From Cytauxzoon felis (Eukaryota > Apicomplexa > Aconoidasida > Piroplasmida > Theileriidae): a DNA stretch of 64,000 nt. The position numbers and the translations under genes are program-made. The stretch lies in assembly GCA_020283715.1 (NCBI GenBank), contig JAIQCW010000013.1:81425-145424 (forward strand), written 5' to 3'. The notes under the pieces were generated by a model. That model saw nothing but the letters and a program-made list of their open reading frames with translations, was not told the origin of the DNA and ran no database searches. Below are positions 3,313-63,630 of the stretch, one piece after another. How positions within the stretch are numbered: the stretch's first letter is position 1; every line of letters starts with the position of its first letter.

Positions 3313-6300
3313 ATGGAAGATATTAATATCGATACCAATTTGTACTCTAGACAAATTGGTGCATTTGGCATTGAGATGATGGGTAAATTACAGAAGTTGA
3401 ATGTACTAATCATAGGACTTAAATCATCAGGAATTGAAATTGGTACGCTCTTTACATATTAAATTTCAAAATTTCATTATATAGCCAAAAATTTAATGAT
3501 AATGGGAGTAGAATCTATTTGCATACAAGATGATGATATTGTACAACAGAAAGATCTAGGAACAAATTACTATCTGCATTATGACCACGTAAATAAATTT
3601 AAAGTCAGTTACGCCGTTTTAAACAAACTCAAAGATCTAAACGCCAATGTACATGTCGATGTACATGAAGGATATATTGATGAAGTAAGTTCAACGTTTC
3701 TCATCTTCTACTCTTTTCCACTCGCGTTCCACTTGAGGTCCATCTTTTCCATTGCATGGAGCTCTTCCACTTATTCCCCTCAAACTCTCATAGATTGTTC
3801 TCGGGTCTATCATAATCATCTGTCCTTTCTCACATTCTTTTTATCAGACTTTAATATTAATGTATGATGTTGTTGTATGTTGTGATCAGCCCTTAGAGCT
3901 GGTAAAGAGATTAAATAATTCATGTCGTAATAATGCTAAAAGTAAAAGGATCGGTTTTATATCATCTGATACTTTTGGTATGATTGGCGCAATCTTCGTT
4001 GATTTTGGATCGGATTTTATATGCCATGATGCTACTGGTAGAGATATAAAGACTGGTATAGTCGAAGCTGTAACAAATGTTAGACAATCCATTTAATACT
4101 TACTATTTATATATTCTCAGGAAAAAGAAGGACTCGTTACTCTTCATGTTGATAAAGCAATGGATTTTCAAACTGGAGATTATGTTAAATTTAGCGAAGT
4201 TGAAGGAATGGTAGAATTAAATTCATTAGAGCCAATTCAAATAAAGGTTGTTAGTAAAGACTCGTTTACCATCGGTGATACCACGTATTACTCAAATTAT
4301 ACAAAGTTAGTTTTCACCCACTCACAAGCCGTTGTCTAATCGAAGGTATATATCACCTGAGCCAAATCCTTACCTCCGCCACTATCTCTGGGAGTGGCTC
4401 TACTCTTTAGAGATAGGTAATTAGAAGAGCTGTCTGCGGGACAAAGAGAGGTGGATCACCTTCGGTTGAGGTAATATTCCATCATATTTGAGGGAGAACA
4501 TACGCCAGAATTGGCGGAAGTTACGGTTATTTTAATTCGTTCATATATTTACTTGTAGTGGTGGTATAGTGACAGAAGTTCGCAGGCCAAAGTATATTGC
4601 TTTTCGTAGTTTTGAGGATTGCATTTTGTCTCCCGTTGAAGGTAATGATGCGTTGATGACGATGGATTATAGTTTGATTGGAAGAGCTGAGCAATTGCAT
4701 TGGATAAGTATGGCTTACAGAATGAAAGGTGTGGATAATTCTACACTTCAATTGTGTAAGGAGCTTAATTCTAACTGTAAATCATGTAAAGTTGATGAAA
4801 TTGATGAGAAACTTTTTAATAATTTTATACATTTTGCCCATTTAAGAGTACCACCTCTGGCATCATTTGTTGGCGGCGTCGTTGCTCATGAGGTAAATTT
4901 ACCCATACCATTACATAAAATTTAATTAAATTCATCAGGTTATTAAATTTACTGGAAAATATCACCCAATATATCAATGGTTATATTGTGATTTTACACT
5001 ACCATCTGACATATTAACCGGTGATTTCACCGGTATGGGATTCGACGCCAGATATACAGATCAAATTTCAATTTGGGGAAGTGATTTACATAATCTTATT
5101 CAAAATGCCAAGATATTCATAGTATATCTTTTAAAATAATATTATCAATCATATTCATTATTCAGGTCGGATCCGGAGCACTAGGTTGTGAATTCATCAA
5201 AAATTTCGCACTATTAGGCTGCGGCTCACAAAATGGATCAATTACCATAACTGATAATGACCACATCGAATTATCAAACATCAGCAGACAATTTTTATTC
5301 CAATCAGTATGTTTATTCAAGGCTAACTTGATACTGAGCTGTTGATACTCCACCTGAGGTTACCTCTACTGTAGGTCCAACCTCTATTCCTCTTGCAGAG
5401 AGCTCTTCCAATTACCTATCTCTAAAGAGTAGAGCCACTCCCGGAGATCGTGGCGGAAGTGAAAGTGTTGAGTACATGACCTCAAGTGGAACACCCGCAG
5501 CTGATCTCAGGGAAGCGAAGGGGGAAGTAAATAAAGGAGCTGATGATAGGATTTATCTGCTCTCAATTTAATCTGATGTTAACGATTTTTTATAGCGTCA
5601 TGTCGGTTTGCCTAAATCTAAGGTCGCTGTGGAGTCTGCGTTAGAGATTAATGGTGATATGAAAATTTTACCATTGGAACTACGCGTTGGCGAAGATACA
5701 GAAGATTATTTTGATGAGCAATTTTGGTCTAATTTAACTATTGTTGTAAATGCACTTGATAATTTACAGGTAAGACGAGTGTTCAACGTAACTACTTCAT
5801 ATATTTAGGCAAGACAATATGTTGATGGTAAATGTGTATGGTATGAAAAGCCATTAATAGAAAGTGGTACATTAGGTACTATGGGTAATGTACAGGTCAT
5901 TATACCACACCTAACACAATGCTACGGTGAAAGTCAAGATCCACCAGAAACATCCATACCATTATGCACATTAAAACACTTCCCATATCAAGTCGAACAC
6001 ACAATCGAATGGGCCAAAGATCTGTTTGTAGGAATCTTCACACAATTGCCACTCGATATCAAAAATATATACAACAATCACGGTATGTCACACTCCACAC
6101 TTTCGAATTTCATGAAAGTAAAACGTTGTCCTACAGTAGGTTTTCCACTTGAGGTCCAATCCTACTCTCATTGCCACGATCTCCGGGAGTGGCTATATTC
6201 TTTAGAGATAGGTAATTGGAAGAGCTCTCTGCAAGAGAAGGAGTGGTGGATTGGACCTCATGTGGAACGAAGTGTTGAAAACAAGGAGTTTTTTATGTCC

Positions 6301-7945: not shown

Positions 7946-7983
7946 AAGTTTATAAAATTAATTTATTATTTATACGCACATAA

Positions 7984-10900
7984 ATGTACGAAGAATTAGA
8001 TATTCATGAGTTTCTACCGGGGAATACATGTCAGCAGATTGTGGATTCTAATATTGACTATAGAAGGAAGGGCTTATGTGTAATTGATAATACCGTACGT
8101 GACTATATACGCAATGTCAAAAATGACGATACAATTGATATCACAATAAAACGTTTTCTAAATTTCATTAAATTAAAATTCATCGATAATCCGGATCCTA
8201 ATTCCAGGATTGGTGGCCTAATGTCTATCGCATGTGCAGGATTGGCACTCGACGTATGTAAATTTAATCATCATTGACATTTATACAGGAATATTTGGAG
8301 AGATTTAGTCATGATTTTATTAAAATTGTATTGTCTTCATTTTACGATCAGGACCATAAAGTGCGATACTATTCATGTGAAGTATGTTGATACCTACGCC
8401 ATCTTACAATTTTACCTTTAGTCATTGTATAACATCATTAAAAAGGCCAAAAGCAACTCCCTAATATTCATTGATGAAATATTCGATGGCATTTGTAAAG
8501 TACGTTAATCAATGTTCATCTCCACTTTCATCTACACTACCCGTTCCACCTGAGGTTACCTCTACCGTAGGTCAATCCTGCCGTCAGCTCTTTCATTTAC
8601 TTCCCCCTAAGCTCCCGTAGATCGCTATCGGGTAGTAAATTATATTCATCATATTCAACCTTCAGTTGTCATGTGACCCAGACGAAGATGTCAAATACGC
8701 TTCACAAATATTAAATCGACTACTATGCGATTTATTCTTACAGTGTAAAGAGCTACCCGTTGATAGAATAATTAATGTTCTATCCGATAGGATATTTGTA
8801 ATCAATCCATTCATCAGACAATTAATCGTAAATTCATCACTATTGTATAATCATAAATTTATAGGTATCATGGATTATCACTCTAAATTCAATCGCATGT
8901 TTGTCTCTTATATTATAATCATCTTCATATCCACAGCCATTAATATCATTCATCATTTACCGAAATTGTATCTAGGATTGTCAAATATGCTCATTGATGT
9001 AAACAAGTAAGAAAAAATTAAAATTATACCACAATTATCCACAGAGATGTACGTAATTCTGCCGAAACTTGTATCAATGATCTGTTGATACAAATCAAAA
9101 AAAAGTATTCAAATAACAATAACATCATCAACGAAGAACTATTCAAAGTCATGCTCCTCAATACCAAACGATCCGAAATACAAATTAAATCACACACCAT
9201 CATCTGGGCAAGAGAAATAATACACCTACAACCACTCATCATACACTTTGTACGTTTACTATAACGAATGTAGCATCCAATGGACGAAGTGAGATGTTGT
9301 CCACCTGAGGTCTTGCCACTCGCCGTGGTGGCCTCTTCCAATTACTTCCCCGTAAACGGTAGAGCCACTCCCGGAGATTGTGGCAGAAGTTTAGTGATTG
9401 TAACCTCAAGTGGACTTACTGAATATGATTTATAATTATATTTATAGAAGGGTTTTTCTTTATTATTGAGTTTTCTGATAAAGTCGATTTCTGATACTAA
9501 CTCTGGTATTATGTATAATGATGAATTTTAATTTATTAGATGTTTCAAAGATAGCTCAGGATGCCAATAAAATTTTATTCAATAATGTTTGTATTATTTT
9601 AAAAAAAAATAAATCTCAACGTCTTAGGTTAAGGATGTTTTAAAAACTGTTACATATATCGATGAGCTTGTAGTATCATTAACTGACGTTTTGGATACCT
9701 CAAATGAAGAACTTGTTATATTCTCATCATTAGAATGGATTTGTCTAATGCTAGAGATAAGGTAAAATTATTTGTGTGATGCCTATACCATCCCTTCTCA
9801 TATTATAGTCCCAATGGAATGCTTAATAAATCGCAAATGTTATCTAAATCTGTAATCGGATGCTTCAAACAATCACATTCAGAGGTAATTTCTTTTATAA
9901 ATTTCTATTCATGTAATCTCAGCAAATAACCAGTGCTATTTTACGCGTACTAGTACTCATAGTCTCACTTGGTGATGAACAATTCGAACTAGTAGCACAC
10001 GATTTACTCAACTTTCTAAAAAATGATAAAAAAATACTCGTATGTATATCTGCATGTCCGACCTACTATACTTTCGCCACGATCTCTGGGAGTGGCATCA
10101 CCCTTTAGGGATAGATAATTGGAAGAGGCCTCCACGGCGAGTGGAACACTGGTTGTAACTTCAGGTGGAGAGCTTCCTGCAACTATTTTCAGTTGAATCA
10201 AATTTGTGGATATATTTTATGTGTATAGGATGATTATGGCCGTGATATAATATTGAACGTTTGCATTAACGTTGGTTTCGAGCGTTTTTATAGGACTATA
10301 ACTAGATGTATGAATAATGAAATGGTATGAATCATTTGATTACTTAATTAATTTCAATTTTAGGATAGAGAATTTTTACAGAAGATTATTCATTCATTAA
10401 ATTGGACATTATTAACAGCTGAGGTTAGAACAATTTTTCATTCCAATTTTTATAATACAGGAAGCTGAAGAATTTAGAATAGAGCTATTAAAAAACAAGA
10501 AATCTGATATCGCAATTCAACTACAGAATACATGGTATATAATATATAGCTCAATCATGTATATATAGGATACACGGAAATTTATCATCAGCACTGTCAT
10601 TTTCACTCTGGACCGAAAATTATAAACTGGCAAATGAAATTGTCACTAAAATGTATGCAATATACAAATATATCAATTGCCAAATGATATACTCTATAAT
10701 AATCTACAACATCTTATGTCCACCATTCTTCCACCTGAGGTCTAATCCAACTCTCCTTCCACTAGCCGTGGCGCCTCTTCTATTTACCTCCCCTCGGATT
10801 CCCGTAGATCATCCTCGGTTTTTGTTAACACAGAAGAACGTGATGTAGTTAATGGACCTCAAGTGGAACCCGTAGCTGATCTCAGGGAAGCGGAGGGGAA

Positions 10901-11289: not shown

Positions 11290-12495
11290 TCATTTACCGA
11301 AATTTCTTTTAGTATTCTTGAATATATTGATACAATGATGTATAGAATTTAAATTTATGCCATAAATTTGATAAATTTCTGAATCTACCAAGAATAAAGG
11401 TTGTATGCCTAATGATCCAAATGGGTGTATAATATTCATATTGAATGATAATTTATCACCAAACCACAGTAATATTAATGATAATATAATTTTTATACAA
11501 TATTTGATATTTCTAATGTTACTCAATAAATGTTTAATACTTTCTCTTAAATTACATTTAAATGATATCACTATATCCGGTAATATAAAATTGATTCCAT
11601 TGTAATTTAGAACATATTTAGTCAATTCGTTATGTAATATATCCTCATCCAATGGTATCCTATACTTTATATTATTATACATAATCCATTCCCCCGAAGA
11701 TTGTTTACATAAATTGATATCATTATCACATCTAGCTGAGACCTTTCTATTAGGCATTACACATGAGGTCTTTCCACTCGCGTTCCACTTGAGGTCTTTC
11801 CACTCGCCTCCACCTGAGGTCTTCCACTCGCCGTGGTGGCCTTCTCTATTTAGTTGTCCCTCCGCTTCCCTGAGATCAGCTGCGGGTAGTCCACTTGGGG
11901 CTACATCACTAACTTCCTGTTCTTCCGGGTTAAATTCCTGTTCTTCCTCATTACCTTCTCCACGATCTCCGGGAGTGGCTCTACCGTCTACGGGGAGGTA
12001 ATTAGAGGAGCTCTCTGCAAGAGAAGGAGAGGCGGATTGGACCTCAGATGGAGAAGAGCTGTCTGCAAGATGACCTCGGATGGAAGTGGAAGACATAGAT
12101 TCAACATCAGGTGGAACGTAGGAATGAGTTTGTGTAGTGGTAATGTAGTTTAATATTCTTTCGTGGCTGTACTTGTGGTTGATGATGCACATTAGTATAC
12201 CAAAATCAATGGAATCACCTGTATATTCAGAAAGCATTATTTTATCATTGCATTTATACACAATATACAATAGACAATCGGGGACGTTGATATCATTTCT
12301 ATCAACTTTCCTATATCTTGACATATGATTATTAAATCTACCATCAGCATTGTAGACAGTGAGATATTTGACATGTTCTTCTAGTAGTAGATTTGCGATA
12401 TGAAGTACATCATATTCTAACTTTAGAATTGGTGTACAATTGAGGATGCAGTCATTCAGTATAATAGCTACATGTGTAGGAATATTTTCATTCAT
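11290..12495 (-). CDS. NUS1: NUS1/Nogo-B-receptor-like cis-prenyltransferase subunit
   Basis: Probable non-catalytic subunit of dehydrodolichyl diphosphate synthase (dolichol synthesis, ER). The N-terminal part reads HVAIILND, then LDIANLL-type text (YDVLHIANLLLEEHVKYLTVYNADG). This matches the NUS1 pattern of a central IANL helix followed by ISVYDNQG. The C-terminal part has PDIVISF, a hydrophobic segment, and FGSLGIQPLFLVDSEIYQI. It ends NTKRNFGK, close to the RxGK tail of NUS1. A dispersed repeat of about 350 nt splits the two halves in frame, in a region where an insertion would be a surface loop. There are no introns. The identification rests on motif order and is moderately sure. Confidence 0.6.
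   Translation of the reverse strand: MNENIPTHVAIILNDCILNCTPILKLEYDVLHIANLLLEEHVKYLTVYNADGRFNNHMSRYRKVDRNDINVPDCLLYIVYKCNDKIMLSEYTGDSIDFGILMCIINHKYSHERILNYITTTQTHSYVPPDVESMSSTSIRGHLADSSSPSEVQSASPSLAESSSNYLPVDGRATPGDRGEGNEEEQEFNPEEQEVSDVAPSGLPAADLREAEGQLNREGHHGEWKTSGGGEWKDLKWNASGKTSCVMPNRKVSARCDNDINLCKQSSGEWIMYNNIKYRIPLDEDILHNELTKYVLNYNGINFILPDIVISFKCNLRESIKHLLSNIRNIKYCIKIILSLILLWFGDKLSFNMNIIHPFGSLGIQPLFLVDSEIYQIYGINLNSIHHCINIFKNTKRNFGK
11764..12117 (-). repeat. Dispersed repeat, coding copy 2
   Basis: Exonised inside the NUS1-like gene. It is read as [17 protein letters not shown] and [17 protein letters not shown] with PEEQ units between. Stems include CCGTCTACGG and CTCTTGCAGAGAG-type dyads. 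Confidence 0.9.
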
Positions 12496-12945: not shown

Positions 12946-14965
12946 ATGAAATTTAATCTCGCATTGTATTGGATACTAAACACCGGTAGTTTATACGAAA
13001 ATTTAATCTGTAAACGCACGTTAAAAAGAGGTTTAAAAATGGAATCCATCAACCCATTTAACAATGAACAAAATCTAAGGTTCATCGATATAGGAGCCAA
13101 TTTAACTGATCCAATGTATAAAGGCATCTATCATAATAGCAACAAACACAAACCAGATCTCAACAAGTATAGCACGTCGTAAATCTAACTTCCATATATT
13201 ACACATTGTAGAGTAATTGATCGAGCTAAAAGGATCGGTATGGAAAAAATTATCATCACGTCAGGATGTCTCGAAGATGTATATGAAGCACTCGATATCT
13301 GCAACGAATATGGTTAGTCATATATATTTCGAAGGAGCATAGCTACTGAAGTGTCTTCCACCTGAAGTCCAATCTTACTCTCTTTTCCATTGCATGGAAC
13401 TCTCCACTTGAGGTCAGTCCTGCCGTCAGCTCTTCCAATTACTTCCCCTTCCAGCTCCCGTAGATCGCTTCCAGGTTCCACTTGAGGTCTCAACCTGAGG
13501 TCCAATCACTACCTTCTACTCCACCTCCTTCACCGCCACGATCTCTGGGAGTGGCTATACCGTTTACTGGGAGGTAATTGGAAGAGCTGACGGCAGGACG
13601 ACCTCAGGTGTAACACCTAGTTGAAGTAGGAGGAAGATTGTGGCTTTATCATTACACCGTTTAATTCATTATAGATAAGGAATGTTGTTTTTTGTATACA
13701 ACGGTTGGCGTTCATCCAACGAGATGTAATGATTTTATCAAGAATAAATTTTCATTGGACGAAAATCAATACTTGGAGAAGATGGATGAGATAATATCGC
13801 AAAATCCGAGAAGAATTGTTGCCATAGGTGAATTAGGTCTTGATTATGATCGATTGAAATTTTGTACGAAGGATGTGCAAAAGAAGTTTGTTAAATCATA
13901 CTTCATATACAAACTTTAGATACTTTGAATTACAACTACAATTAGCTAGAAAATATAAATTACCACTCTTTTTGCACATGAGAAACGCAGAAAAAGATAC
14001 ATTTGGTACGTAAATACACTTATATATGGCCAAGACTTACTTACTCCACTAAGGTTTTATCATTCATTCTACTGTTATTCCACTTGAGGTCCTGAAGACA
14101 GCCTCTTCTATTTACTTCCCCCTCCGCTTCCCTGAGATCAGCTACGGGTCTCCACCTGAGGTTACATCACTACCTCTACCTTCTCTACTGCCACGATCTC
14201 TGGGAGTGGCATCACTCTTTAGAGATAGGTAATTGGAAGAAGCCTCCACGGCGAGTGTAACAGAAGTGGATTGGACCTCAGTTGGAACGGCGAGTGGATG
14301 AGAGGGTGTAGAGGTAGATGTATTTTAGCTTGTAGAAATTATTGAATTTGTTTCATAAATAATATGAAATTTATATTCTTTTATTATAGAAATTTTGGAT
14401 CGTAATCGTTCATTATGGTCGGAAGGAGGCGGTGTCTGCCATAGTTATACTGGTGATGTGTCGGCATTGGATTGGTTATTGCAGAATGATTTGTATATTG
14501 GCATCAACGGATGTTCATTGAAAACTCAATTTAACCTTGACACTGTTAAGAGGATACCATTGAACAGATTACTATTGGAAACTGGTAAGATTTGTAATTT
14601 GTCTATGTATAGAATATGTAGACTGTCCATGGTGTGGTATAAAGACTACACATTGTAGTAATGAATATGTAAAGACAATATTTAAGAGCATTAAAAGGCC
14701 AGAGAATATGAGAGAAGATACAATATTATATTCAAGGAATGAACCGTGTCATATATTGTATGTTTACATTACACATTATAATTTCTTCATAATAATATTC
14801 ACATTCCAGGAATGTGGCAGAAGTAGTACATAATATTTCATCACCAGAGATTAATTTTAAAGATTTTTGTGACAAGTAAGTTGATATGTGGAAATTCAAT
14901 TCTGACGTTCCAAACTCTATAGGATTTATCATAATACAATCCAATTATTTAAAGGTATCGCCTAA
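12946..14965 (+). CDS. TatD-family deoxyribonuclease
   Basis: Metal-dependent hydrolase (TIM barrel) of the TatD DNase family. Motifs in order: [15 protein letters not shown] (usual D.H/N-type first motif), [31 protein letters not shown] (metal-binding Glu and Asp), [28 protein letters not shown] and RLLLETDCPW. The start at 12946 gives a basic, uncharged-rich extension of 31 residues before a second Met (13039), which could be an organelle leader. The second Met may be the real start. Seven or so exons; two introns (13357-13621 and 14077-14310 areas) carry dispersed repeats. Confidence 0.88.
13357..13621 (-). repeat. Dispersed repeat in TatD intron
   Basis: Double copy: CCATTGCATGG and AGC-TCCCGTAGATC-GCT in the first half. 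The second half has GCCACGATCTCTGGGAGTGG and CCGTTTACTGG-type dyads. Confidence 0.9.
14077..14310 (-). repeat. Dispersed repeat in TatD intron
   Basis: CCACTTGAGGTCC, CGCTTCCCTGAGATCAGC, GCCACGATCTCTGGGAGTGG, CTCTTTAGAG, CCACGGCGAGTG, then ACCTCAGTTGG. Confidence 0.9.
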
Positions 14966-15172: not shown

Positions 15173-17991
<2,819 letters not shown>

Positions 17992-27239: not shown

Positions 27240-28768
27240 ATGAATTATAAGAGATGTTTATTTTATGTCGGTGTATTAAATAATGTCATTAAAGATGAAA
27301 TAGAGGTATATAATAAACTTAATGAAAATTTAACCCATACAGGTATATTCATATTATTTTTCTTACACATTTCATCTTTAGCATCAGAAAATTATGAAAA
27401 TTTCTGGGATTCTATAAAGTTATCATTTTCTAAAATCAATTTAACATTAAATATTGATTTAAATTCCAATATAAATGATAAATATCTTAATTTATGCTCA
27501 TTAATACAAAAAATAGCATGGGGAAATGAACTTTACATCAAAAAAATAACTAAAGATGAAGTAGATATTGTTTCTAAGCATTATTTACCAACAGAAAATG
27601 GTGATTTCTTACTACTTAATGATCAAACTCCTCCTGGTAAGTTACTTTATCATTGTCTAACGTCATTCTCATATCTCACTCACACTTTAGAAAATGATAG
27701 ATTATTCGACAATTATCCATTCGATTCATCTAATTTACTCTCCATAGTCTTGAATGATGTTCGTGGATCCGATTCAAATTACATCATCTCAACCAAGAAA
27801 ATGATACCAATAGGAACAGGATTAGGCGGAGGTTCAGCAGATACAGCAACATTACTTAATACACTAAATGATACAATCATATATAAACCAGAAAATACCA
27901 TAAAATATGGATCAGATGTACCATTCCTAGTCTCAAAATGTACGTTTACACAACAAACAAGAAAGTATACAATGACGGATCCATCTGAAGTTACAGTCCT
28001 ACTCTCCATTCCACTAGGCGTCCCACCTGAGGTCCTTCCACTCGCCGTGGTGGCCTCTTCTATTTACTTCCCCCTACGCTTCCCTGAGATCAGCTTCGGG
28101 TTCCACTCGAGGTCCAGTACTAACTCCACTTGAGGTCATATCCATACCTTCTCTCCGCCACGATCTCTGGGAGTGGCATCACCCTTCAGGGATAGGTAAA
28201 TAGAAGAGCTCCATGCAATGGGAAGAGAGGTGGATTGTACCTTGAGTGAAGAAGCGTGTGGAAGACAAGGTTGTAACCTCGGGTGGATGTAAAGGATCTT
28301 CTATTATATAATCATCATGTATTTATAGATTCTGTAGCATTAGTTTATGGTAATGGTGATCAAATGGTTGGTATAAATCAGCATTTATTTAATGGTCCGA
28401 TATATTTATTTATACCTAATGTATGTACAATGACATCGAGTGTATTTAAGAAAGCACGTCAAGTATTTGAGAATGGTGGTTTCCCTGGTGTTGATAAAGA
28501 TATGGTTACATTTAGATTATATAACGACTTGGAAAAATGTATTATCGATGATGATGTAAAAGAATTATATGAAATATTAAAAGAGGAATATGATGAAAAA
28601 TCGTTTGGAATGACAGGAAGTGGTTGTGCATTTTTCTTAATGGCAACTGACGACTATGGAAATGAAGATGAAATTTTAAAATTAAGAAATTATTATAAAA
28701 AACCACTCTCTATTATCAAAACCAGATTTAAAACCAATAAAAATCAACACAATTTCAAATATCTATGA
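27240..28768 (+). CDS. ispE: 4-diphosphocytidyl-2-C-methyl-D-erythritol kinase
   Basis: GHMP kinase of the apicoplast MEP isoprenoid pathway, phosphorylating CDP-ME. Motifs: substrate region SFSKINLTLNI, the ATP loop IPIGTGLGGGSADTATLLN, YGSDVPFL, and the third GHMP motif GMTGSGCAFFL. The hydrophobic stretch TGIFILFFLHISSLA before the domain fits a signal peptide of a bipartite apicoplast leader, although the exact first exon is uncertain. One long intron (within about 27950-28300) contains a dispersed repeat; it falls between YGSDVPFL and the C-terminal domain. Confidence 0.85.
27975..28295 (-). repeat. Dispersed repeat in IspE intron
   Basis: CCACTAGGCGT, CCACTCGCCGTGG, CGCTTCCCTGAGATCAGC, GCCACGATCTCTGGGAGTGG, CCCTTCAGGG, CCATGCAATGG, CTCGGGTGGA. 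Confidence 0.92.
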
Positions 28769-28876: not shown

Positions 28877-29145
28877 CTCTACCTGAAGTCCAATCCTACT
28901 CTCTTCGTCTTGCAGACAGCTTCCTCTAGTTACTTCCCCCTCAAGTTCCCGTAGATCACTTTCGGGTATTTCACTTCCACTTGAGGTCTTGTTCTTAGGG
29001 TTTGTACATCTTCGTTCTTCCGGGTTAACATATCTTGTTCCTCCGGGTAGACATTATGCCGAGGATGATCTACGGGAATCCGAGGGGAAGTAATTAAAAG
29101 AGCTGACGGCAGGACCAAGAGAGTTGGATTAGACTTCAGGTGGAG
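28877..29145 (-). repeat. Dispersed repeat overlapping bL28 stop
   Basis: Lies between convergent IspE and bL28. It carries AAGT-TCCCGTAGATC-ACTT, CCGGGTTAACATA-type units and GGAT...ATCC. Its right end supplies the TGA stop codon of bL28. Confidence 0.92.
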
Positions 29146-38489: not shown

Positions 38490-41400
38490 ATGTTGTACGA
38501 TATATTGTTGGCCTTAACTGGCCATAATGGTGATGTTATTATACAAGACGGTAATAGCTATAAAGTTGGTACATCAGTTAACATCACATACTCTGATCTG
38601 GACATGGTGAATTCTATAACAAAATTAGGATATCAATACTCAAATATACGTAAATTCTGTGATGATATACAACAAAGACGATATAATAGTATTGTTGATG
38701 ATATAATCAATGGTTCCAAATATAAAAAATCATTAAACAATCGTTCAAATAACAATTATATACTAGCATCTACACATGCTATCGAAAAATACCTACAAAA
38801 TTATCTAGAAAATATCATTAATATACAATCTCTAATCAAAGCCAATCCCAATCTATCACTTGCCACTCTACTACTTCAAATCCAAAATCAAAAAGATATC
38901 ATCAATACCATCACGAAAATCATCAATGAAGTTTGTTTAATCAAACATAACAAATCCACTCGAGGTCCAATCCAATTCTTTCCCACTAGCCGCTCCACCT
39001 GAGGTTACAACCATCGTAGGTCTTGCAGACAGCTTCTCCACTTGAGGTCTTTCCACTAGGCGTGGTGCCTTCTTTATTTACCTCACCCTTCGCTTCCCTG
39101 AGATCAGCTACGGGTAATCCACTTGAGGTCCATTAACTATATCATGTTCTTCCGGGTTAACACTCTTTGTTCCTCCGGGTAGATTTCCTGTTCTTAGGGG
39201 TAGAATTCCTGTTCTTAGGGGTTGAACATCGCCACGATCTCTGGGAGTGGCTATACTCTTTAGAGATGACTAAATTGAAGAAGCCTCCACGGCGAGTGGA
39301 AGAGGTGAAGGTAGTGATTGGATCTCAAGTGGAGTCTAGTGTAATTGTACATTATATTATTTATTACATTAGTTGTTTTTATAATAATATATTAAAATAT
39401 AGGTATTGAAGAATGATGACATTGGATTATTATTGAATGGAGATGGTAATATATTGCGTAGTAATATAAGTAATGATATATTTATGTCATGTATGGATGT
39501 ATTTATATTGAGATTACGTTTATGGTTAGGTTATGGACAATTATATGATGATAATGAAGATTTTATAATATTAAAGAGGGATTTATTAAATAATGATGAT
39601 AGATATTCATTTGGTTTATTATCATCATATGATAGTTTATATAATGAATTGAATTCTAATAATTATGAATATGAATGGAATTATAATTTTTATATAAATA
39701 AAAATGATATATTTTATAATATATTAGGTGATAAATTATGTAATGATATATTATTTATTGGTAAAGTTATAAGAATATTATTAAGATGTAATAATAATAA
39801 TAATAAATTTAATATTATAGTAAATGAATATATTTTTAATAATTTAATTAAAGATAATAAAATTATATCAAATTTGAAATTATTTATTGAAAAATATAGG
39901 AAATTTATATCAAAATTATTTTGGGATTATATTAATAATCATTATAATATTCTTAATGAATTATCTTTAATCAATGGTCTATATCTTTTAAATTATGATC
40001 ATATCATTATAGAATTTTTAAATAAATCTTGGTTTCAATTACTTAAATCTGATTCAATAACATTTAATCATATCAAATATAATTCATGGTATAAAACAAC
40101 TAATTATATTCATATCAATCTTATAAACAATAATAAACCTTCTACAAAAATCATTTCAACATCTACAAAAAAAGCTACATCCACATCTATTCGTCTTTCA
40201 GTCAACTCATCAATTGAAGTATATTCTAATATCAACTCTTCACACGATGTACAATCCAACTCAACTTCACCCGAGGTCCAATCCAACTCTTTTCCACTCG
40301 CCGTGGAGGCCTCTTCTAATTTGTTATCCCTGAAGGGTGGAGCCACTCCCAGAGATCGTGGCGATGTTCAACCCCTAAGAACAGGAAATCTACCCCTAAG
40401 AACAGGAAATCTACCCGGAGGAACAAAGAGTGTTAACCCGGAAGAACATACCTCGGGTCTAGTAGATGTAACCTCAAGTGGATTACCCGTAGCTGATCTC
40501 AGGGAAGCGAAGGGTGAGGTAAATAGAGAAGCTCCATGCAATGGCAAAATAAGGACCTCAAGTGGAGGAGCTGACGGCAGGACGACGAAAGATGGTGATT
40601 GGACCTCAGGTGTAAGCAGAAAGGAGTGTATGATTGTAACCTCAAGTGGATTACCCGTAGCTGATCTCAGGGAAGCGAAGGGTGAGGTAAATAGAGAAGC
40701 TCCATGCAATGGCAAAATAAGGACCTCAAGTGGAGGAGCTGACGGCAGGATGACCTCGAGTGGAGGACATGTATTTAATGATAGAGTAATGATTGATGTA
40801 GGAGATAATGATTATTTTAAAATATGGGATGGTATGAATGAGGAAAATTGTATAGATATGAATTCAACTATAACATCATTGAGTAGTAGTAATATTAGTG
40901 ATGATAATAAAAGTAGTGTATTATTAAGTTCATTATTTGAATTACGTCATGTAATAAAAAATTTCAATATAAAATCTAATTTTATAAAATATGGAAAGTA
41001 AGTTTATTAAATATAATTTATTATATTAATATTAGTTTAAATTCTATTGGTGGTTTATGGTATGATGGATTATTATCATTATTAAATGGATTTGATATGA
41101 ATTTAGATTTAAATTTAAAATTTAATGATAAATTTACATTTTCATTAATATTACAATCACAAATACATCCAAATATTTTGAAAGATTTATTTAATTATTA
41201 TAATAAATCACCACAATTAAATGATTATCTTTCTATAAATTTCAAATTTATTAAATTATCAAATCATATTAATATTATTATTAATATTATATCAGATTCT
41301 AAAAGTATAGAAAATAATTTTTATAAATTCAAATCAAATAATATTAATATCAATAGTAATACCAATAATTTCAATTTAAATGATACAAAATTTAAAATTA

Positions 41401-42915
41401 ATATCAAATTAACTAATCATACCATCAATGTTAAACTCAATACCATTCATAATATACTCTCACTCAATACCAAATCAATCAATACCAAATTTATTACCAC
41501 ACTCAATCATACCGATACATTCATCGGTATCATCACACACGATGTACAATCCAATCCACCTGAGGTCCAATCCAACTCTGTCCCACTCGGCGTGGAGCCT
41601 TCTTCCAATTACCTATCCCTAAAGGGTGATGCCACTCCCGGAGATCGTGGCGAAGTTAATGAGGAGGAACAAAATTTGTCTACCCGGAAGAACGAAAATG
41701 TTCAACCCCTAAGAACAGGAATTCTACCCGGAGGAACGGACCTCCACCTGAAGTTACAACCTTATTTTCCACTCGCCGTGGAGGCTTCTTCCAATCATCT
41801 CCCCGTAAACGGTAAAGCCACTCCCGGAGATCGTGGCGATAAACCTGGAAGCGATCTACGGGAGCTGGAAGGGGGATTAAATAGAGAAGCTGTCTGCAAG
41901 ACAAGGGAAGAAAATGCAGATATAAAGCATCAACCCGGAGGAACAAAGAATGTCAACCCGGAAGAACAGGAAGGTAATGAGGATATTGATGTAACCTCAA
42001 GTGGAATGAAGTGTAGTACTGGACCTCAAGTGGAACCCGCAGCTGATCTCAGGGAAGCTAAGGGGGAAGTAAATAGAGAAGGCTGTCTGCAAGACGAAGA
42101 CGAGGTATATCGGACCTCAAGTGGAGAAGCTGTCTGCAAGACGACTTCAGGTGTATACAATGGAAAACAGGGTGGTAATGTTGATATTGAGATATTGTTA
42201 TGGGATGTATGTATATTACCATCTAATTTATCGATATTACCTGATATTGGTATGGATGAGAGTATATTATATAATTTGAAATTATGTTATAAACATACAT
42301 GGCCATTAACAATGATAATATCTACAGATGTATATAATAATATATTTCAATATTTATTTATATTAAGGTAAATTTTTTTTTATTAATAAAAAATGAAATG
42401 ATTATAATAATAGATATTGTTTATATGGTCTTGAAGAATATTGTCGTATAAATTTATATATTAGAAATAATATTAATAATAAACAAAATAATTATTTATA
42501 TGAATTATTTTGTACAAAATATATTTTATATTTTATATTAAAATCTTTATATCATCATTATCAATTTAATATTATTGGTTTATCTACAAAAAATTTAGAA
42601 AATTTAATTAAAAATACAAATGATTTCCAATTAATTAAATCATTACATAATAAACATTTAAAATATATATTAAGGTTTGTAAATTATATAATCTTATTAT
42701 ATTAATTATAATTTCACATCTATAGATCATTAAAAATTCATAATATCAAATTATTATTACAATTCTTTAATACTTGTATTCAATTCACACAAATCACACA
42801 TGATGCTTTACAAAATCATATTCAACCAATTAATTTTCAATACTTCATATCACATACAAAAAATACTATCAATCATACACAAATACTCTTACGTAAAATT
42901 AATGTTATACAATAA
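38490..42915 (+). CDS. GCP4: Gamma-tubulin complex component GCP4
   Basis: Subunit of the gamma-tubulin ring complex for microtubule nucleation. The start MLYDILLALTGHNGDVI matches GCP4 (M.HELLLALSGYPG). Later GRIP1 blocks: IFMSCMDVFILRLRLWLGYGQ, then DILFIGKVIRILLR, FWDYINNHYNILNELS and YLLNYDHIIIEFLNKSW. GRIP2 blocks include LKLCYKHTWPLTMIIS and IFQYLFILRYCLYGLEEY. The last exons end KINVIQ at 42915. About six exons. Two very large repeat insertions are read in frame (40255-40770 and 41545-42160), and one intron carries another copy. Elsewhere coding is extremely Asn/Ile-rich. Confidence 0.85.
38950..39330 (-). repeat. Dispersed repeat in GCP4 intron
   Basis: CCACTCGAGGTCC, CTTGCAGACAGC, CCACTAGGCGTGG, CGCTTCCCTGAGATCAGC, CCGGGTTAACAC units, GCCACGATCTCTGGGAGTGG, CTCTTTAGAG, CCACGGCGAGTGG. 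Confidence 0.92.
40255..40770 (+). repeat. Dispersed repeat, coding copy 6, internally duplicated
   Basis: In GCP4. After SSNLLSLKGGATPRDRG and PLRTGNLP/PGGT units, a block of about 112 nt ([20 protein letters not shown] ... GGADGR) occurs twice, at about 40469-40581 and 40637-40750, almost unchanged. Confidence 0.93.
41545..42160 (+). repeat. Dispersed repeat, coding copy 7 (double)
   Basis: Longest copy, in GCP4. Two complete left halves ([17 protein letters not shown] and SSNHLPVNGKATPGDRG) and two right halves ([17 protein letters not shown] and [17 protein letters not shown]). Confidence 0.93.
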
Positions 42916-42947
42916 ATTCAAAATCTATACCAACAACTTATCTAACT

Positions 42948-43155
42948 CCACCTGAGGTTACAACCAGTATTCCACTCGCCGTGGAGGCTCTTCCAATTAC
43001 CTATCTCTAAAGAGTAGAGCCACTCCCAGAGATCGTGGCGGAAGTATTGACTATGTAACCTCAAGTGGAACCCGTAGCTGATCTCTGGGAAGCGAAGGGG
43101 GAAGTAAATAGAAGAGCTGACGGCAGGACCTCAAGTGGAATACGAGGTCGAGGTA
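42948..43155 (+). repeat. Dispersed repeat between convergent stops
   Basis: Starts 33 bp after the GCP4 stop: CCACCTGAGGT, CCACTCGCCGTGG, CTCTAAAGAG, AGAGATCGTGG, CTCTGGGAAGCG, AGCTGACGGCAGG, CTCAAGTGG. Confidence 0.92.
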
Positions 43156-48834: not shown

Positions 48835-49065
48835 AGACAGATCTCCACATGATGTCCAATCCTACTCTCCTTTCCACTCGCCGTGGTGGCCTCTCTATTT
48901 ACTTCCCCTCGACTCCCATGGATCGTCTCGGATTCTTCGCCGCGATCTCCGGGAGTGGCATTACCGTTTACGGGGAGGTAAATAGAGAAGCTGACGGCAG
49001 GACGACCTCAAGTGGAGAGCTCTCTGCAAGAGGAATAGAGGTTGTAACCTCAGGTGGATAAGACG
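48835..49065 (+). repeat. Dispersed repeat in 6-Cys-like gene 3' flank
   Basis: About 55 bp after the stop: CCACATGATGTCC, CCACTCGCCGTGG, GAC-TCCCATGGATC-GTC, CCGCGATCTCCGGGAGTGG, CCGTTTACGG, CTCTGCAAGAG, CCTCAGGTGG. Confidence 0.92.
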
Positions 49066-49214: not shown

Positions 49215-49530
49215 TTTCCTTCTCTTCCATTAGGCGTTCCACCTGAGGTCAATCTTTTCCATTGCATGGAGCTATCCACCTTTACTTCGTCTTGCAGACA
49301 GCTTCCTTTATTTACTTCCCCCTCAAACTCCCGTAGATCGTTCTCGGGTATTCCACTCGAGGTTACATCAACACATCCTTAGCACCATCTTCCATCATTC
49401 CCATGATGGATGATCCATCACTACCCTCTCCACGATCTCTGGGAGTGGCTTTACTCTTTAGAGATAGGTAATTGGAAGAAGCCTCCACGGCGAGTGGAAG
49501 AAGAGTTGGATTGGACTTCAGGTGGAAGAC
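49215..49530 (-). repeat. Dispersed repeat in ApiAT 3' flank
   Basis: Ends about 40 bp from the stop of the first ApiAT gene. Contains CCATTGCATGGAGC, CTTGCAGACAGC, AAC-TCCCGTAGATC-GTT, the CCCATGATGGATGATCC module, CCACGATCTCTGGGAGTGG and CCACGGCGAGTGG. Confidence 0.92.
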
Positions 49531-54162: not shown

Positions 54163-56139
54163 TTATTTTTTAACTTGTTGTTTAAATGTGTTTAGAGTAT
54201 GTTTGATTTGTGTATTAAACATGAGATAGAAGAAAATGATTAAGAAAATGATTCTAACAATGAGTAGATAAATATAGATATTGACGATTGAATTGAAATC
54301 TATTTCAGGTTTGATTATGAAGAGGTTAATTAAAATACTGATACCTCCTATTGTATTAATAAATCCTATAACACTTCCATAATAAATTTTATTAAATTTA
54401 TCTTCTAGATAGATATATACTTGTGTATTATATACACTATATGTTATATTCATAAACAATGAAAATATAATACCAGCTAATGTAGTATTATAAAATGCTG
54501 ATACATTTGCTACTATACCAAAAAATGATAATATTATTAATACAGATAATGGTGATAATATTTTATATACAAATGTAAAAATAATACAAATAACAAATGA
54601 TAATGGTGTTAAATATTCATTTAATGTTAATAACATACTATTATCTACATATACTATATTAAATGCTTGCTGAAAATATGTTAATCCTACTACATTATAT
54701 GCATAATATAAACATGATACAATTATTTCAAATTTTTTAAGATTACAAATAAATCCACTAAATGTCCATTCATCCTCTAATGTTAATTTATTTGTCATAC
54801 CACTTTGAGATATTGTAAATTGCCTTGGAGTATCACTTACCATTTCAGCAGATGATGTCTCATCATAAACACCAACCACTCCATATTTAACATGATTATA
54901 TTCATCCAAAGATAATACTTCAGATAAAGTCCTTTCTTTCCACTCGTGTCCACCCGAGGTCGTCTTGCAGACAGCCTCTCCACTTGAGGTTACATTCCTG
55001 CCGTCAGCTCTTCCTTTTACTTCCCCCTCAAGCTCCCGTAGATCGCTCTCGGGTTTTCCACCTGAGGTTACATCACTAACTTTCTGTTCTTCCGGGTTGA
55101 CATTCTTTGTTCCTCCGGGTAGATTTCCTGTTCTTAGGGGATGATTATCTTCGTTCTTCCGGGTTAAAATCTTCTGTTCCTCCTCATTACCTTCGCCACG
55201 ATCTCTGGGAGTGGCATCACCCTTTAGGGATAGGTAATTGGAAGAAGCCTCCACGGCGAGTGGAACAGTGGTTGTAATATCGAGTGGAGATCCATCTGCA
55301 AGACCTACGGTGGAGCGCCTAGTGGAAGGGGAGTTGGGTTGTACCTCGGTGGAGGCGAGTGGTGAGGATAGCGATTGTATTTCATGTGGAGATTTTACAG
55401 GTTGAATATTATCTTCTTTGATATCGATTTCGATATGTTCATAATTGTCATTGATGAGATCATCTATATTACCATTTTTTAGATCATCGGAGAGTTTATT
55501 GGGGTAGAAAATTAAAGAAATAAAAAAACATGGTAATAAACAAGAGATAACAAAATAAATAGATAATCTCTTGTGACCAATATCAGTATTTAGTAAAATT
55601 TGTTCTAATATTTTAATAACAAAACATGTGAATGAACTACTCATAGCAACAATAATAGTTGTTTGATATTTATATTTCCTATTATATTGTTCAATAGTTA
55701 AAGCAGGAAATAAGGTAGAATTAGTACAAACACCCATTAAAATGAATGCTAGTTTAATTAATACATCATAAGATGAAAATAAACCTAATAATAACCATGA
55801 TATAACAGCTAATATAACACCCATACATGATACTATCCTAGGACCTAATCTATCCATACATATACCTATAATAACACTTGATAAATATTCAGGTAGTCTA
55901 CCATAAGGTAATAATTGACTTATCCATAATTGCTGCTTATTACATCTAGGCTTATCTGTAGGTTTTACTACATCAACTACATTTATACCCTCTTCTTTAC
56001 ATAAATCTGAATAACAATCACTCAAATATAAATATTTTTCCGTAGACGTCCAGTTATCAAAATATGGACCCGCAATAGTAGCCACCAAAAAATACAAAAA
56101 TAGACGCAACACCCAATGTACCTTCATTTTATTATACAA
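54163..56139 (-). CDS. ApiAT-type MFS transporter 3 with repeat in central loop
   Basis: 658 aa, longer than its paralogues because a dispersed repeat (54940-55390) is translated in the central cytosolic loop. FDNWTSTEKYLYLSDCYSD and GICMDRLGPRIVSCMGV are conserved. The six C-terminal spans resume after the loop (FSGFICNLKKFEIIVSCLYYA). The insertion avoids every membrane span, so the fold can probably tolerate it. No introns. Confidence 0.85.
   Translation of the reverse strand: MYNKMKVHWVLRLFLYFLVATIAGPYFDNWTSTEKYLYLSDCYSDLCKEEGINVVDVVKPTDKPRCNKQQLWISQLLPYGRLPEYLSSVIIGICMDRLGPRIVSCMGVILAVISWLLLGLFSSYDVLIKLAFILMGVCTNSTLFPALTIEQYNRKYKYQTTIIVAMSSSFTCFVIKILEQILLNTDIGHKRLSIYFVISCLLPCFFISLIFYPNKLSDDLKNGNIDDLINDNYEHIEIDIKEDNIQPVKSPHEIQSLSSPLASTEVQPNSPSTRRSTVGLADGSPLDITTTVPLAVEASSNYLSLKGDATPRDRGEGNEEEQKILTRKNEDNHPLRTGNLPGGTKNVNPEEQKVSDVTSGGKPESDLRELEGEVKGRADGRNVTSSGEAVCKTTSGGHEWKERTLSEVLSLDEYNHVKYGVVGVYDETSSAEMVSDTPRQFTISQSGMTNKLTLEDEWTFSGFICNLKKFEIIVSCLYYAYNVVGLTYFQQAFNIVYVDNSMLLTLNEYLTPLSFVICIIFTFVYKILSPLSVLIILSFFGIVANVSAFYNTTLAGIIFSLFMNITYSVYNTQVYIYLEDKFNKIYYGSVIGFINTIGGISILINLFIIKPEIDFNSIVNIYIYLLIVRIIFLIIFFYLMFNTQIKHTLNTFKQQVKK
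54940..55390 (-). repeat. Dispersed repeat, coding copy 8
   Basis: In ApiAT 3: [17 protein letters not shown], then EEQK/TRKN/PGGT/PEEQ units, [20 protein letters not shown]. Confidence 0.93.
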
Positions 56140-58928: not shown

Positions 58929-60623
58929 ATGGATGAGGATGATGATATTGAAGTTGAAACGAATATATGGAGGAACGATATTCGTCCATTGAAAGAAGGT
59001 ATTGTTATTTATAAACCTCAATAATTATTAATATATAGACGAAGTACTAGAAGTATCACCAGGATGTTATGAAATGCTATATAAAATTACGTTGGATTGG
59101 TCATGTCTATCGTTTGATATTATTAAAGATAATTTAGGTGGATGTAGAATAGAATATCCACACGAATGTTACGTAGTAGCTGGTACACAACCAAGTACAA
59201 AACCAGATGATGAATCACTCATACATGTCATGAAATGGTCAAATCTAATGGAAAACGGTGGTGAAGAAGAAGAGGAAGAAGATGAAGATGGAAGCATCGA
59301 TGATGTTGAATTCAAATTCAATAGCATTAAACATAATGGCCTTATCAACTCTGTTAAAATATGCCCACAAAGCACAAGACTAATATGCACAATGTCAGCC
59401 ACATCCAATGTCTACATCTGGGATATCAACGATGAATATAATAATCTAATCAATGGTTAGTGATCCAATAACATCAAAGGTTATCCAGTCTATCGTTCTA
59501 TTCCACGCATTTCATTGTCTTGCAGACAGCTCTCCACCTGAGGTTACATTCCTGCCGTCAGCTCTTCTATTTACTTCCCCCTCCGCTTCCCTGAGATCAG
59601 CTACGGGTTTTCCACTTGAGGTCTGTTCTTCGGGGCTGAAATTTTCACGTTTTTCCGGGTATAACTTCCTGTTCTTCCGGGTAGACATATTTTCGTTCCT
59701 CCGGGTAGAATTTTTCTGTTCTTAGGGGTAGACATCGCCACGATCTATGGGAGTGGCTATACTCTTTAGAGATAGGTAATTAGGAGAGCTCTCTGCAAGA
59801 GGAAGAGAGTTGGATTGGACATCAGTTGGAATTTACAATTACTGTTACATTTTGTTTAATATTAATTTTATAGGTTCATCTGGTAATACATCATGTAGGG
59901 CTCCATTATTTATAAATAGTAGGCATGATGTAGAGGGTTATGCAGTATCATGGAATCCTTATACATTGGGTATATTAGTATCTGGTGATTGTAATGGTGA
60001 GATATATTTATGGTCTCCTATCCATGGTGGATGGGAATTGAATAGATTTTATAAGACAAATGCTTCGATTGAAGATGTTAAATGGCAAGATTCAAATATA
60101 TTTTCATCATCATCAACTGATGGTATAATAAGGTTTATTTGAAAATTAAATTATTTTATATAATAATTTATTTTATAGATTATTTGATCTTAGATGTAAA
60201 GGTGTAACATGTGAATTCAAAGTATCTAATGTTGATGTAAATTCATTATCATGGAATCCTATAGAAAAAAATATTTTATTATGTGGTGATGATGAAGGAA
60301 TAGGGAAAATATATGATATTAGACATGTAGATAATAATTTAGCAGAAATAACATGGCATAATAATTCTATTATATCATTAGATTGGCATCCAAATGAATC
60401 ATCAGTATTAGCATTATGTTCTAGAGATGATTCAATTTCTATATGGGATACATCAATTGAAGCACAAGATATTACAAATAATCCAAATATACCACAACAA
60501 TTAATGTTCCTACATATGGGACAAACAGATATCACACAAGTCATGTTCCATCAACAAATACCAGGAGTTATCATCTCTACCGCACTAGACGGACTCAACG
60601 TCTTCAAACCTATCAATATCTAA
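58929..60623 (+). CDS. RRB1: RRB1/GRWD1 WD40 ribosome-assembly chaperone
   Basis: Chaperone of ribosomal protein uL3. The N-terminal helix motif is MLYKITLDWSCLSFDI, then CYVVAGTQPSTKPDD and an acidic block EEEEEEDEDGSIDD. WD blades: GYAVSWNPYTLGILVSGDCNGEIYLW, SIEDVKWQDSNIFSSSSTDGIIR and SLDWHPNESSVLALCSRDDSISIWD. The C-terminus is LMFLHMGQTDITQVMFH, as in this family (HQG...IKE.HWH). Four exons; one intron carries a dispersed repeat. Confidence 0.88.
59505..59830 (-). repeat. Dispersed repeat in RRB1 intron
   Basis: CTTGCAGACAGC, CTGCCGTCAGC, CGCTTCCCTGAGATCAGC, CCGGGTATAACTTCC and CTTAGGGG units, GCCACGATCTATGGGAGTGG, CTCTTTAGAG, CTCTGCAAGAG. Confidence 0.92.
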
Positions 60624-60667
60624 AATATACATACATATTATATATTATCGCAATCATGCTAAACATG

Positions 60668-60910
60668 GATTCCACCTCAAGTACAACCCCTGTCTTCTAC
60701 TCCTCCTTTCGTTCCACCTGAGGTCCGTCTTTTCCATTGCATGGAGCTCTTCTATTTATCTATCTCTAAAGAGTATAGCCACTCCCGGAGATCGTGGCAG
60801 AGGTGTAGTCATTGGACCTCAAGTGGAAGTGAAACCCGCAGCTGATCTACGTGAAGCGAAGGGAGAGGTAAATAAAGGAGCTGTCTGCAAGACGACCTTA
60901 GGTGGACTAA
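60668..60910 (+). repeat. Dispersed repeat between convergent stops
   Basis: 45 bp after the RRB1 stop: CCACCTCAAGT, CCATTGCATGGAGC, CTCTAAAGAG, GAGATCGTGG, GCT-GATCTACGTGA-AGC, AGCTGTCTGCAAG, CTTAGGTGG. Confidence 0.92.
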
Positions 60911-60994
60911 CAACATATTACTAATTATATTAGAGTATGTATAAAATTTTATATTATATTAGACCAGTGTTTGCAATTATTGCAATTATAGATA

Positions 60995-62264: not shown

Positions 62265-62520
62265 GAATTCCACCGAGGTACTTTCACTCCTTCACCTTTC
62301 CTTCCACTCGAGGTCCTGCCGTCAGCTCTTCTGATTACTTCCCCGTAAACGGTATACCCACTCCCAGAGATCGTGGCAGAAGTGTAGTGATTTGACCTCA
62401 AGTGGAATACCTGGAAGCGATCTACGGGAGCTGGAAGGGGAAATAAATGGAAGAGCTCCATGAATGGAAAAGATGGACCTCAGGTGGAGAGCTGTCCGCA
62501 AGACGAAGGAGAGGTTGGAA
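62265..62520 (-). repeat. Dispersed repeat in HAD2 3' flank
   Basis: About 100 bp from the HAD2 stop. Contains CCACTCGAGGTCC, CTGCCGTCAGC, CCGTAAACGG, AGAGATCGTGG, AGC-GATCTACGGGA-GCT, AGCTGTCCGCAAG. It occupies the position equivalent to the repeat beyond HAD1. Confidence 0.92.
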
Positions 62521-62619
62521 AAGAAATGTGGACCAGACAACACATTACTAATTATATTCGAGTATGTATAAAATTTTAAACTACATTAGACAAGTGACTG
62601 CAATTTTTAGCAAGATATT

Positions 62620-63630
62620 TTACGGAGTGATTCCATAAACCTGTTGTAAAGTGTATGCAACAGCTGCTTCATAGTTTGACAATTTAACAACATATTTAGC
62701 TTCTTCTTTAACATATTCATTTGCGTTATTCACAGCAAATGATAAGTTTGATAGTCTCATTGCTTCAACATCATTTTCACCATCTCCAATATAACCACAT
62801 GATGACGGTTCTTCACCCAGATGTTCCATGAGCACTTTTAAACCTTCAGCTTTATTACTGCCAGGAGGTGTAATTTCATATTTGTTATTGGATGCTTTTA
62901 CAATATTGTAATCTATACCTATGGTTAAACCTGTTATACTCATATTCTTCAAATCATCACGAGTATATACTACGAATATTACAATATTTTCCTTCAATAA
63001 TTTTTCTTCTGTTATTAATTCGACCGGTGCACGTCTGGTAGATTTGAATTTTTCCTCCAACTCATTTGTTAATTTCGTACATTTCAATGATCTCGAAGAT
63101 GAAAAGAAGACCGTTGATGATAACAATCCCTTCTCCTTCAAATAGTCATAAATTATCTTCAATGTCTCTTCCTTAAATTGAATTGATCTAATTATCCTCC
63201 CATCTTTATCATAAACTACAGAACCACAAGCATAAACACCAGGATAACCATTATAGCCAGATCTTTCCTTGAGATTATTTAACAAATATAAAGCTGAATA
63301 ATATGTACGTCCTGAATGATGTCGTAGATTGATATGATCCTTCAACATACCAGTACAGAAGAATGGTGTATAACCAAGTTTAATGAGTCCTTGAAGTGCC
63401 CTCAGATTTTTATTCATAGCTTCCTCATTATCTGTATAAAAGGTACCATTTAAATCCATACCGAAATATTTTGGTGGATTCTGTGGTTTAATGAATTCAT
63501 CTCCAGTACTAGTGCTTACAATTTTTATAACATTAGCCTCCACATCTTTACTATCATTTAAATCTGTACGTCCACATTCAATAGTATAAAACAAATGCGA
63601 TATAATAAAGTATACTATCAGCTTCATCAT
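62620..63630 (-). CDS. Secreted HAD-superfamily paralogue 2, motif I altered
   Basis: Tandem paralogue of the previous gene, with the same signal peptide and pro-region. Motif I is FGMDLNGTFYTD: the second Asp of DxD is Asn (codon AAT at 63448-63450). The general acid/base is therefore missing. Motifs II (FFCTGM), III (GSNKAEGLKVL) and IV (YIGDGENDVEAMR) are kept. It may be a non-catalytic or binding version, or have changed chemistry. No introns. Confidence 0.9.
   Translation of the reverse strand: MMKLIVYFIISHLFYTIECGRTDLNDSKDVEANVIKIVSTSTGDEFIKPQNPPKYFGMDLNGTFYTDNEEAMNKNLRALQGLIKLGYTPFFCTGMLKDHINLRHHSGRTYYSALYLLNNLKERSGYNGYPGVYACGSVVYDKDGRIIRSIQFKEETLKIIYDYLKEKGLLSSTVFFSSSRSLKCTKLTNELEEKFKSTRRAPVELITEEKLLKENIVIFVVYTRDDLKNMSITGLTIGIDYNIVKASNNKYEITPPGSNKAEGLKVLMEHLGEEPSSCGYIGDGENDVEAMRLSNLSFAVNNANEYVKEEAKYVVKLSNYEAAVAYTLQQVYGITP

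Follow-up and report, generated by a model that had tools for sequence, protein, structure and literature searches.

Hairpin units with a conserved recognition sequence are known from the REP/BIME elements of bacteria, which come with a RAYT (Y1) transposase. The nearest analogue of the repeats described here, judged by description and not by sequence, is the Rickettsia palindromic elements, which the excerpt of PMC10969869 presents as short palindromic repeats located between genes and also in frame in unrelated protein-coding genes, where they encode a conserved peptide. In this work we analysed a window of 64,000 nucleotides of Cytauxzoon felis (bases 81,425-145,424 of contig JAIQCW010000013.1, or C9, in an assembly of 8.62 Mb and 181 contigs), and we found in it many copies of a modular repeat whose two arms each carry a hairpin around the core GATCTNNGGGA. 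Since FAINT domains are present, one carried by an open reading frame (ORF) of the window and 145 matches being found across the genome, the host is a piroplasm nuclear genome. We consider it probable that the repeats are a very high-copy family of non-autonomous palindromic elements in that genome, selfish and tolerant of coding positions.

The likeness to the Rickettsia elements lies in the in-frame residence, here in ORFs with CAF1, MFS, kinesin and GCP domains, and in a recurrent peptide of the inserted frame, seen by eye. The differences are the location in a piroplasm nucleus, the thousands of copies, the two-arm modular build and the assorting stem alleles; the family would be a nuclear eukaryotic counterpart of the Rickettsia elements in a tick-borne blood parasite. 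Hairpin units with a conserved recognition sequence are also shared with the REP/BIME elements, but here the Y1 transposase family (Y1_Tnp) had no match in the genome, and 5 of 14 control genomes did give matches. With miniature inverted-repeat transposable elements (MITEs) and foldback elements the family has in common that it is short, non-autonomous and high in copy number, with inverted arms; it differs from them in that the arms are consistently unlike and in that the covarying unit is the hairpins inside each arm, not a long inverted repeat. According to the excerpt of PMC6649704, the mitochondria of Nematomorpha keep perfect hairpin-forming inverted repeats in conserved coding sequence of translated genes; those lie in organelle genes, whereas ours are interspersed nuclear elements. 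The PARCELs, as the excerpt of PMC2996958 describes them, are palindromic coding repeats shuffled in genomes, those of eukaryotic microbes included, that form tandem amphipathic repeats of 25 residues, and by this description they are set apart from interspersed two-arm elements. For C. felis, T. parva, T. annulata and T. orientalis, a survey of 64 apicomplexan genomes reports no transposable element in its excerpted text; it also reports no DNA transposon genes, and MITE candidates were struck out by its authors as probable false positives (PMC9141347). These candidates could have included elements such as ours. Among the matches listed for titles and abstracts on Theileria/Cytauxzoon repeats or on palindromic, introner or hairpin elements, a scope with most subscription journals outside it, the family was not described.

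With up to one mismatch, the core was found at 90 sites of the window, where 12.8 were expected (sd 3.06); the largest of 100 shuffles reached 23 and none reached 90. The exact core occurs at 7,145 sites in the assembly, against 14 for the reversed pattern used as control. The build of the elements was studied in a sample of 263,780 bases with 31.3% G+C, made up of the window, 19 regions of 10 kb and three short loci; L001-L008, which lie in C1 like L009, and L029, which overlaps L028, were left aside. This sample holds 286 cores with at most one mismatch, one-mismatch cores that matched no stem type having been dropped. The elements occupy 13.9% of it, so that about one seventh of the sampled C. 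felis sequence is one element family, some of its copies being in frame within ORFs whose domains are ordinary cellular ones.

Most cores stand in divergent pairs, and the arms are assembled from small hairpin modules in which loops and linkers are conserved. The 228 paired cores of the sample form 114 pairs, of which 97 join an A arm with a non-A arm, 17 join two non-A arms and none joins two A arms; the 58 unpaired cores lie in part at fragment ends. The stem of the A arm is GCCAC..GTGGC, and those of the non-A arms are GCT..AGC, AGC..GCT, GAT..ATC and rarer types. Assigned by closest match, which counts imperfect stems in, the 286 cores comprise 117 of type A (CCAC..GTGG), 111 of type B (GCT..AGC), 40 of type C (AGC..GCT), 9 of type D (GGAT..ATCC) and 9 others; contrary to an earlier note on this DNA, GCT..AGC is therefore not the type of most copies. 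In the window and in four listed loci the usual order of modules is <J <P <h <A, zero to six q units, J> B> P> J>, or its reverse complement, with modules at times absent, duplicated or merged with the adjacent element. J is ACCTCARGTGGA; several hairpins serve as P, namely CCAC-GGCGA-GTGG and its relatives, GCTGACGGCAGG and NNN-TGCAR-NNN. A typical complete element, delimited from sequence and module order, is located at 42947..43139 and reads J', P', h', A' core, J, B core, P2, J; its A-arm core is at 43024..43034 on the minus strand, within the GCCAC..GTGGC stem, and its B-arm core at 43080..43090 on the plus strand, within GCT..AGC.

Around the core several stem alleles occur, and the two sides stay matched. 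The 169 non-A arms have as inner stem GCT/AGC (102), AGC/GCT (36), GAT/ATC (9), AAC/GTT (4) or AGT/ACT (2), and in the remaining 16 it is not fully complementary. The inner three pairs are thus fully complementary in 153 of the 169, the outer stems are fully Watson-Crick in 150, and the inner four pairs of the A arms are fully complementary in 108 of 117. This agrees with the claim of the earlier note that the flanks change as complementary pairs, and the stem variants that it cited were all located in the window at core level. The AGC..GCT variants have their cores at 13456 (13456..13466, minus strand, type C, with outer stem CCT..AGG), 37225 and 41853, and the GGAT..ATCC variants at 10800 (10800..10810, minus strand, type D) and 31187. 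Also on the minus strand are the cores in AAGT..ACTT (28947..28957), in AAC..GTT (49329..49339) and in GAC..GTC (48914..48924); the last has one mismatch (GATCCATGGGA) and stands outside the 286-core sample. CCAC..GTGG is the stem of the A arms. The same matching holds for two further hairpins that were absent from the examples of the note. The h hairpin, with stems CTC/GAG, CCG/CGG and CCC/GGG, is complementary in 110 of 117 cases. The TGCAR hairpins have mainly the stems GTC/GAC (97), CCA/TGG (21) and CTC/GAG (16), and 138 of the 184 TGCAR sites near cores, chance sites included, are fully complementary. Genome-wide, the sides match in 3,345 of 3,400 exact cores with B or C flanks (2,382 and 963, single-base variants of the flank patterns being uncounted), and 55 are hybrids (32 and 23); by our arithmetic about 1,400 hybrids would be expected under free association of the sides.

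The association between parts of the element was expressed as Cramer's V, calculated on common alleles only (rows dropped: 20/169 inner, 17/169 outer and 7/117 h). For the two sides of one stem, V was 0.98 in the inner stem (n 149), 0.92 in the outer stem (n 152) and 1.00 in h (n 110). With the same filter it was 0.09-0.11 between stem and P (p 0.8-0.9), 0.16 between h and P, 0.10-0.24 across arms and 0.28 between the outer stem and its adjacent tail. Intermediate links were obtained between h and the triplet before it (0.41), between tail and P (0.31, p 0.01) and between the loop bases NN and the inner stem (0.60), and the inner and outer stems of one hairpin were associated at 0.86-0.88. The hairpin is largely inherited as a unit while its neighbouring modules are shuffled. 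Shared ancestry is a poor explanation for this, since modules are almost unlinked and the sides of one hairpin are almost completely linked. Because the modules assort almost freely, base-pair covariation can be studied in this family as a natural experiment that is less subject to phylogenetic confounding than usual. The long foldback formed by both arms was rejected as the covarying unit because the two arms differ: only 6 of the 114 pairs have identical NN in both arms, and the P module on the left does not predict the one on the right (V 0.16, p 0.74, n 76).

The second property of the elements, which the earlier note does not mention, is a frame that is mostly open. Of the 97 oriented elements, 22 reside in a long ORF, defined as a stop-free frame reaching at least 200 nt past both cores. 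Each of the 22 has orientation F (A' before B) and the codon phase GAT CTN NGG, and one further element resides in a long ORF in the other orientation; at a cut-off of 150 nt the numbers are 25 and 1. From core to core, all 22 embedded elements measure a multiple of three, and so do 35 of the 75 others (Fisher p 1.1e-6). Phase 0 of F is open for 60 nt past both cores in 45 of the 97, and the five other frames together show 10 openings. Among the 22 in-frame translations, peptides recur with variants, as judged by eye. The in-frame elements would be translated, and gene models in the C. felis genome may include element-derived peptide.

The 75 non-embedded oriented elements have flanking ORFs, from which alone the strands were judged, that are convergent in 13 cases, divergent in 2 and on the same strand in 40, one flank being unassigned in 20. 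The excess of convergent over divergent flanks suggests that the elements may avoid shared promoters.

These properties can be brought together if the family is selfish palindromic DNA that some machinery copies and whose presence is tolerated in intergenic DNA, apparently also in introns, and within exons if it lies in the open phase. Tolerance in exons would come from the one stop-free frame, which looks hydrophilic by eye. At some step the hairpins would have to form in single-stranded DNA or in a transcript, and a factor would read the shape of the hairpin and its loop and not the sequence of the stem. Stem alleles would pass between copies as whole hairpins, through gene conversion or template switching, and half-exchanged stems, that is hybrids, would be lost, so that exchange and loss together would keep the sides matched. 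More tentatively, the hairpin may be the very unit of inheritance: at thousands of loci, a small deck of self-complementary alleles would be exchanged as whole cassettes, near linkage equilibrium, within a selfish nuclear element that has one gene-compatible frame. We know of no repeat family that combines hairpin-cassette inheritance with such a frame.

Several results weigh against the reading of the family as a selfish element with maintained hairpins. A tree-null test modelled on R-scape was performed on the 169 non-A arms, using a FastTree tree over which the substitutions of each column were redistributed in 200 simulations. Among all column pairs, -2/+2, -1/+1 and -3/+3 took the first three ranks and -7/+7 the fifth, with 96-98% pairing at the four, G.T included, and they exceeded their own null in 199, 199, 200 and 196 of the 200 runs. 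After correction for all pairs, the excess that the earlier note had proposed to seek in a statistical covariation test was not reached, the E-values being 0.36, 1.13, 1.35 and 3.36 in the same order and none of them significant. Independent stem changes are few: compensatory doubles numbered 5, 2, 1 and 3 at these pairs, that is, about 8 for the inner three together and 3 for -7/+7, with no non-complementary double, and pair-breaking single changes (14) slightly outnumbered the compensatory doubles (11). The stem of the 117 A arms is nearly invariant, the inner four pairs being 97-100% paired and the fifth 87%; no pair stood out in the test, the top stem pair ranking 19th, and the five pairs showed 1 compensatory double and 3 other doubles. 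The assumption of a tree is poor because modules recombine, and the linkage described above is stronger evidence for stem covariation than the tree test, though the linkage values are somewhat flattering because rare-allele rows were dropped, all 7 of the h rows so excluded being unpaired. The stems do covary, for the most part among a small number of alleles. The proposal that such covariation indicates selection for a dyad or hairpin is thus borne out in one part, the sides being linked far above other modules, and in the other it does not survive the all-pairs correction of the tree test.

In structure prediction, five non-A strings folded into an outer stem and an internal loop of 3x3 or 2x2, followed by the variable stem, then GA/GA, then C(UNNG)G, and a short A string into a stem of 5 bp, so that the core hairpin model fits 6 of 7 folded strings; the core may be interpreted as a UNNG-type loop, closed by C-G, on top of tandem G.A. 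The longer A-arm string folded otherwise, and the folding z-scores of the RNA were weak (-0.4 to -1.7); on thermodynamic grounds alone the hairpin would go unnoticed. One fold suggested that the A core pairs with the h hairpin; this was rejected, NN and h type being unlinked (V 0.17, p 0.2, n 109). As for the open frame, its association with a length in multiples of three is partly built in, because any other length shifts one arm into another, usually closed, frame, and translation is deduced solely from open frames. No mobilising enzyme was found in searches for RVT_1 and Y1_Tnp, other transposase families not having been searched. A reverse transcriptase partner, such as the LINE enzyme of a short interspersed element (SINE) or other retroposon, was rejected, the only RVT_1 gene found being telomerase; this gene (Telomerase_RBD and RVT_1) is located at G000:C56:73693-74436, in L028. 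No target-site duplication was demonstrated, the flanks not having been systematically compared, and the ends of the elements are ragged owing to a variable number of P and J modules on the outside. Finally, in a pair of related hydrolase genes the elements at window positions 43729 and 43024 correspond in place to those at 3127 and 3936 of L021 (43024-43848 against 3127-4005), and at both sites they are oppositely oriented relative to the gene. Inversion between the arms is one possible cause, and independent insertion, or insertion repeated at the same spot, is another; a corresponding place need not mean one shared insertion.

Stems that remain paired could also be explained by RNA hairpins of benefit to the host, acting in transcripts (at 3' ends, in introns or on mRNA stability) and selected at the RNA level, and the convergent flanks would fit a position near 3' ends. 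If so, G.U should exceed C.A in the stems, and it does not: the mismatches are 20 G.T, 21 C.A and 35 others, without strand bias, and selection at the RNA level is not demonstrated. Moreover, the arms are oppositely directed, so that one arm is in sense in any transcript, and copies are found in frame inside long ORFs. A known RNA family was rejected, the window having no Rfam match above the gathering score. Considering the weak folding z-scores and the absence of strand bias in the stem mismatches, we claim no RNA function, and we regard this explanation as unlikely. The three window elements in apparent introns would suit introner-like elements that carry or create introns, but in 22 elements a long frame stays open and the length is a multiple of three, and, read by eye, the apparent introns reach past the element on both sides, which makes an introner origin highly improbable in our opinion.

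Complementary changes can arise in the absence of selection when a hairpin serves as template for its own repair, and such quasi-palindrome correction would account for the lack of non-complementary doubles at the inner and -7/+7 pairs of the non-A arms. It predicts many idiosyncratic stems, whereas most stems belong to a few alleles common to many copies, which points to exchange or descent; besides, the 55 unrepaired hybrids persist among the 3,400 cores and the A arms do hold 3 non-complementary doubles. We give this mechanism little credit. Subfamily structure alone, in which a few founders had different complementary stems that are under no present constraint, agrees with the few independent stem changes and with the corrected outcome of the tree-null test. 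Against it, the modules assort near-freely, so the copies do not behave as clonal subfamilies, and the five commonest inner stem types of the non-A arms are all complementary; it seems very unlikely to us. The selfish palindromic element thus stays the preferred reading.

The in-frame elements of the window are located in ORFs of both strands. On the plus strand they are found, from ORF and run-through, in 371..1186 (cores 805-876) and in 41097..42371, where the counted pair is 41822-41863 and further cores are at 41636 and 42045; in 16522..17991, an ORF that ends a kinesin motor domain (PF00225), with cores 17046-17138 and an extra B arm at 17212; and in 39406..41001, with a GCP N-terminal domain (PF17681), cores 40347-40505 and a further B arm at 40663. 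On the minus strand they are in 11290..12495 (cores 11867-11974, from ORF and run-through), in the PARN-like ORF 36651..38123 (cores 37225-37353), in a second CAF1/PARN-like ORF at 35440..36648 (PF04857, cores 36113-36298) and in the MFS transporter ORF 54163..56139, recognised by Pfam and by comparison, where the element (cores 55034-55210) lies between the two halves. In 36651..38123 the element is inside a single CAF1 match (PF04857, residues 39-460, E 3.1e-31) that runs across it; residues 15-141 of human PARN align with 47-160 of the query (i-Evalue 4.8e-5) and residues 162-226 with 338-404, a match weak alone (i-Evalue 1.1). Two MFS-like ORFs related to 54163..56139, at 49572-51110 and 51981-53390, have no core, so the element is present in one of three; the one at 49572 is just below the Pfam cut-off. 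A protein search with an ORF of 848 aa gave no relative at E 0.001, and none was found for the MFS ORF among genome contigs or for a HAD ORF among viral contigs. For ribosomal RNA, neither an 18S pattern nor the 5.8S model gave a hit. The sole long-frame element in opposite orientation is L020:4354-4476 (frame 2), open for 471 and 321 nt past its cores.

Three elements of the window appear to lie in introns. By our reading, the one at 28081..28172, in opposite orientation, is in an apparent intron between two ORFs of a probable IspE gene, which has a GHMP N-terminal domain upstream of the element and no Pfam match downstream, and the one at 15483..15555, also in opposite orientation, is apparently intronic and lies upstream of the kinesin exons. 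Two related HAD genes each have an element downstream, alike in place and orientation, again by our reading: 60783..60854, 3' of the first gene, with alleles P4/h-CTC/B/P3, and 62362..62429, placed by locus comparison beside the gene at 62620-63630, with alleles P2/h-CCG/C/P4-like. They differ in left P, h, NN, right stem and right P, with the pairing kept and one P loop changed. Two more copies of the HAD gene, in L024, have C-type arms at that place and no recognisable A arm.

The q arrays are at the centre of the elements, as at 36147..36275 (plus strand, from sequence and module listing), 59622-59735 and 55082-55183, with tandem units of about 23 nt (GTTCYTNNGGGTW) in variable copy number; the units occur mainly in three versions, TTCCTCCGGG, TTCTTCCGGG and TTCTTAGGGG. 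In the sample the loop bases NN are CA in most B arms and AC in most C arms, which in the open frame read CTC AGG or CTA CGG, both Leu-Arg. NN has no G in 264 exact cores; a GT copy nevertheless exists elsewhere in the genome. Lastly, L016:9704-9999, near the end of C7, and L017:131-430, near the start of C8, have 300 bp in common at 97%, possibly an assembly overlap or a repeat.

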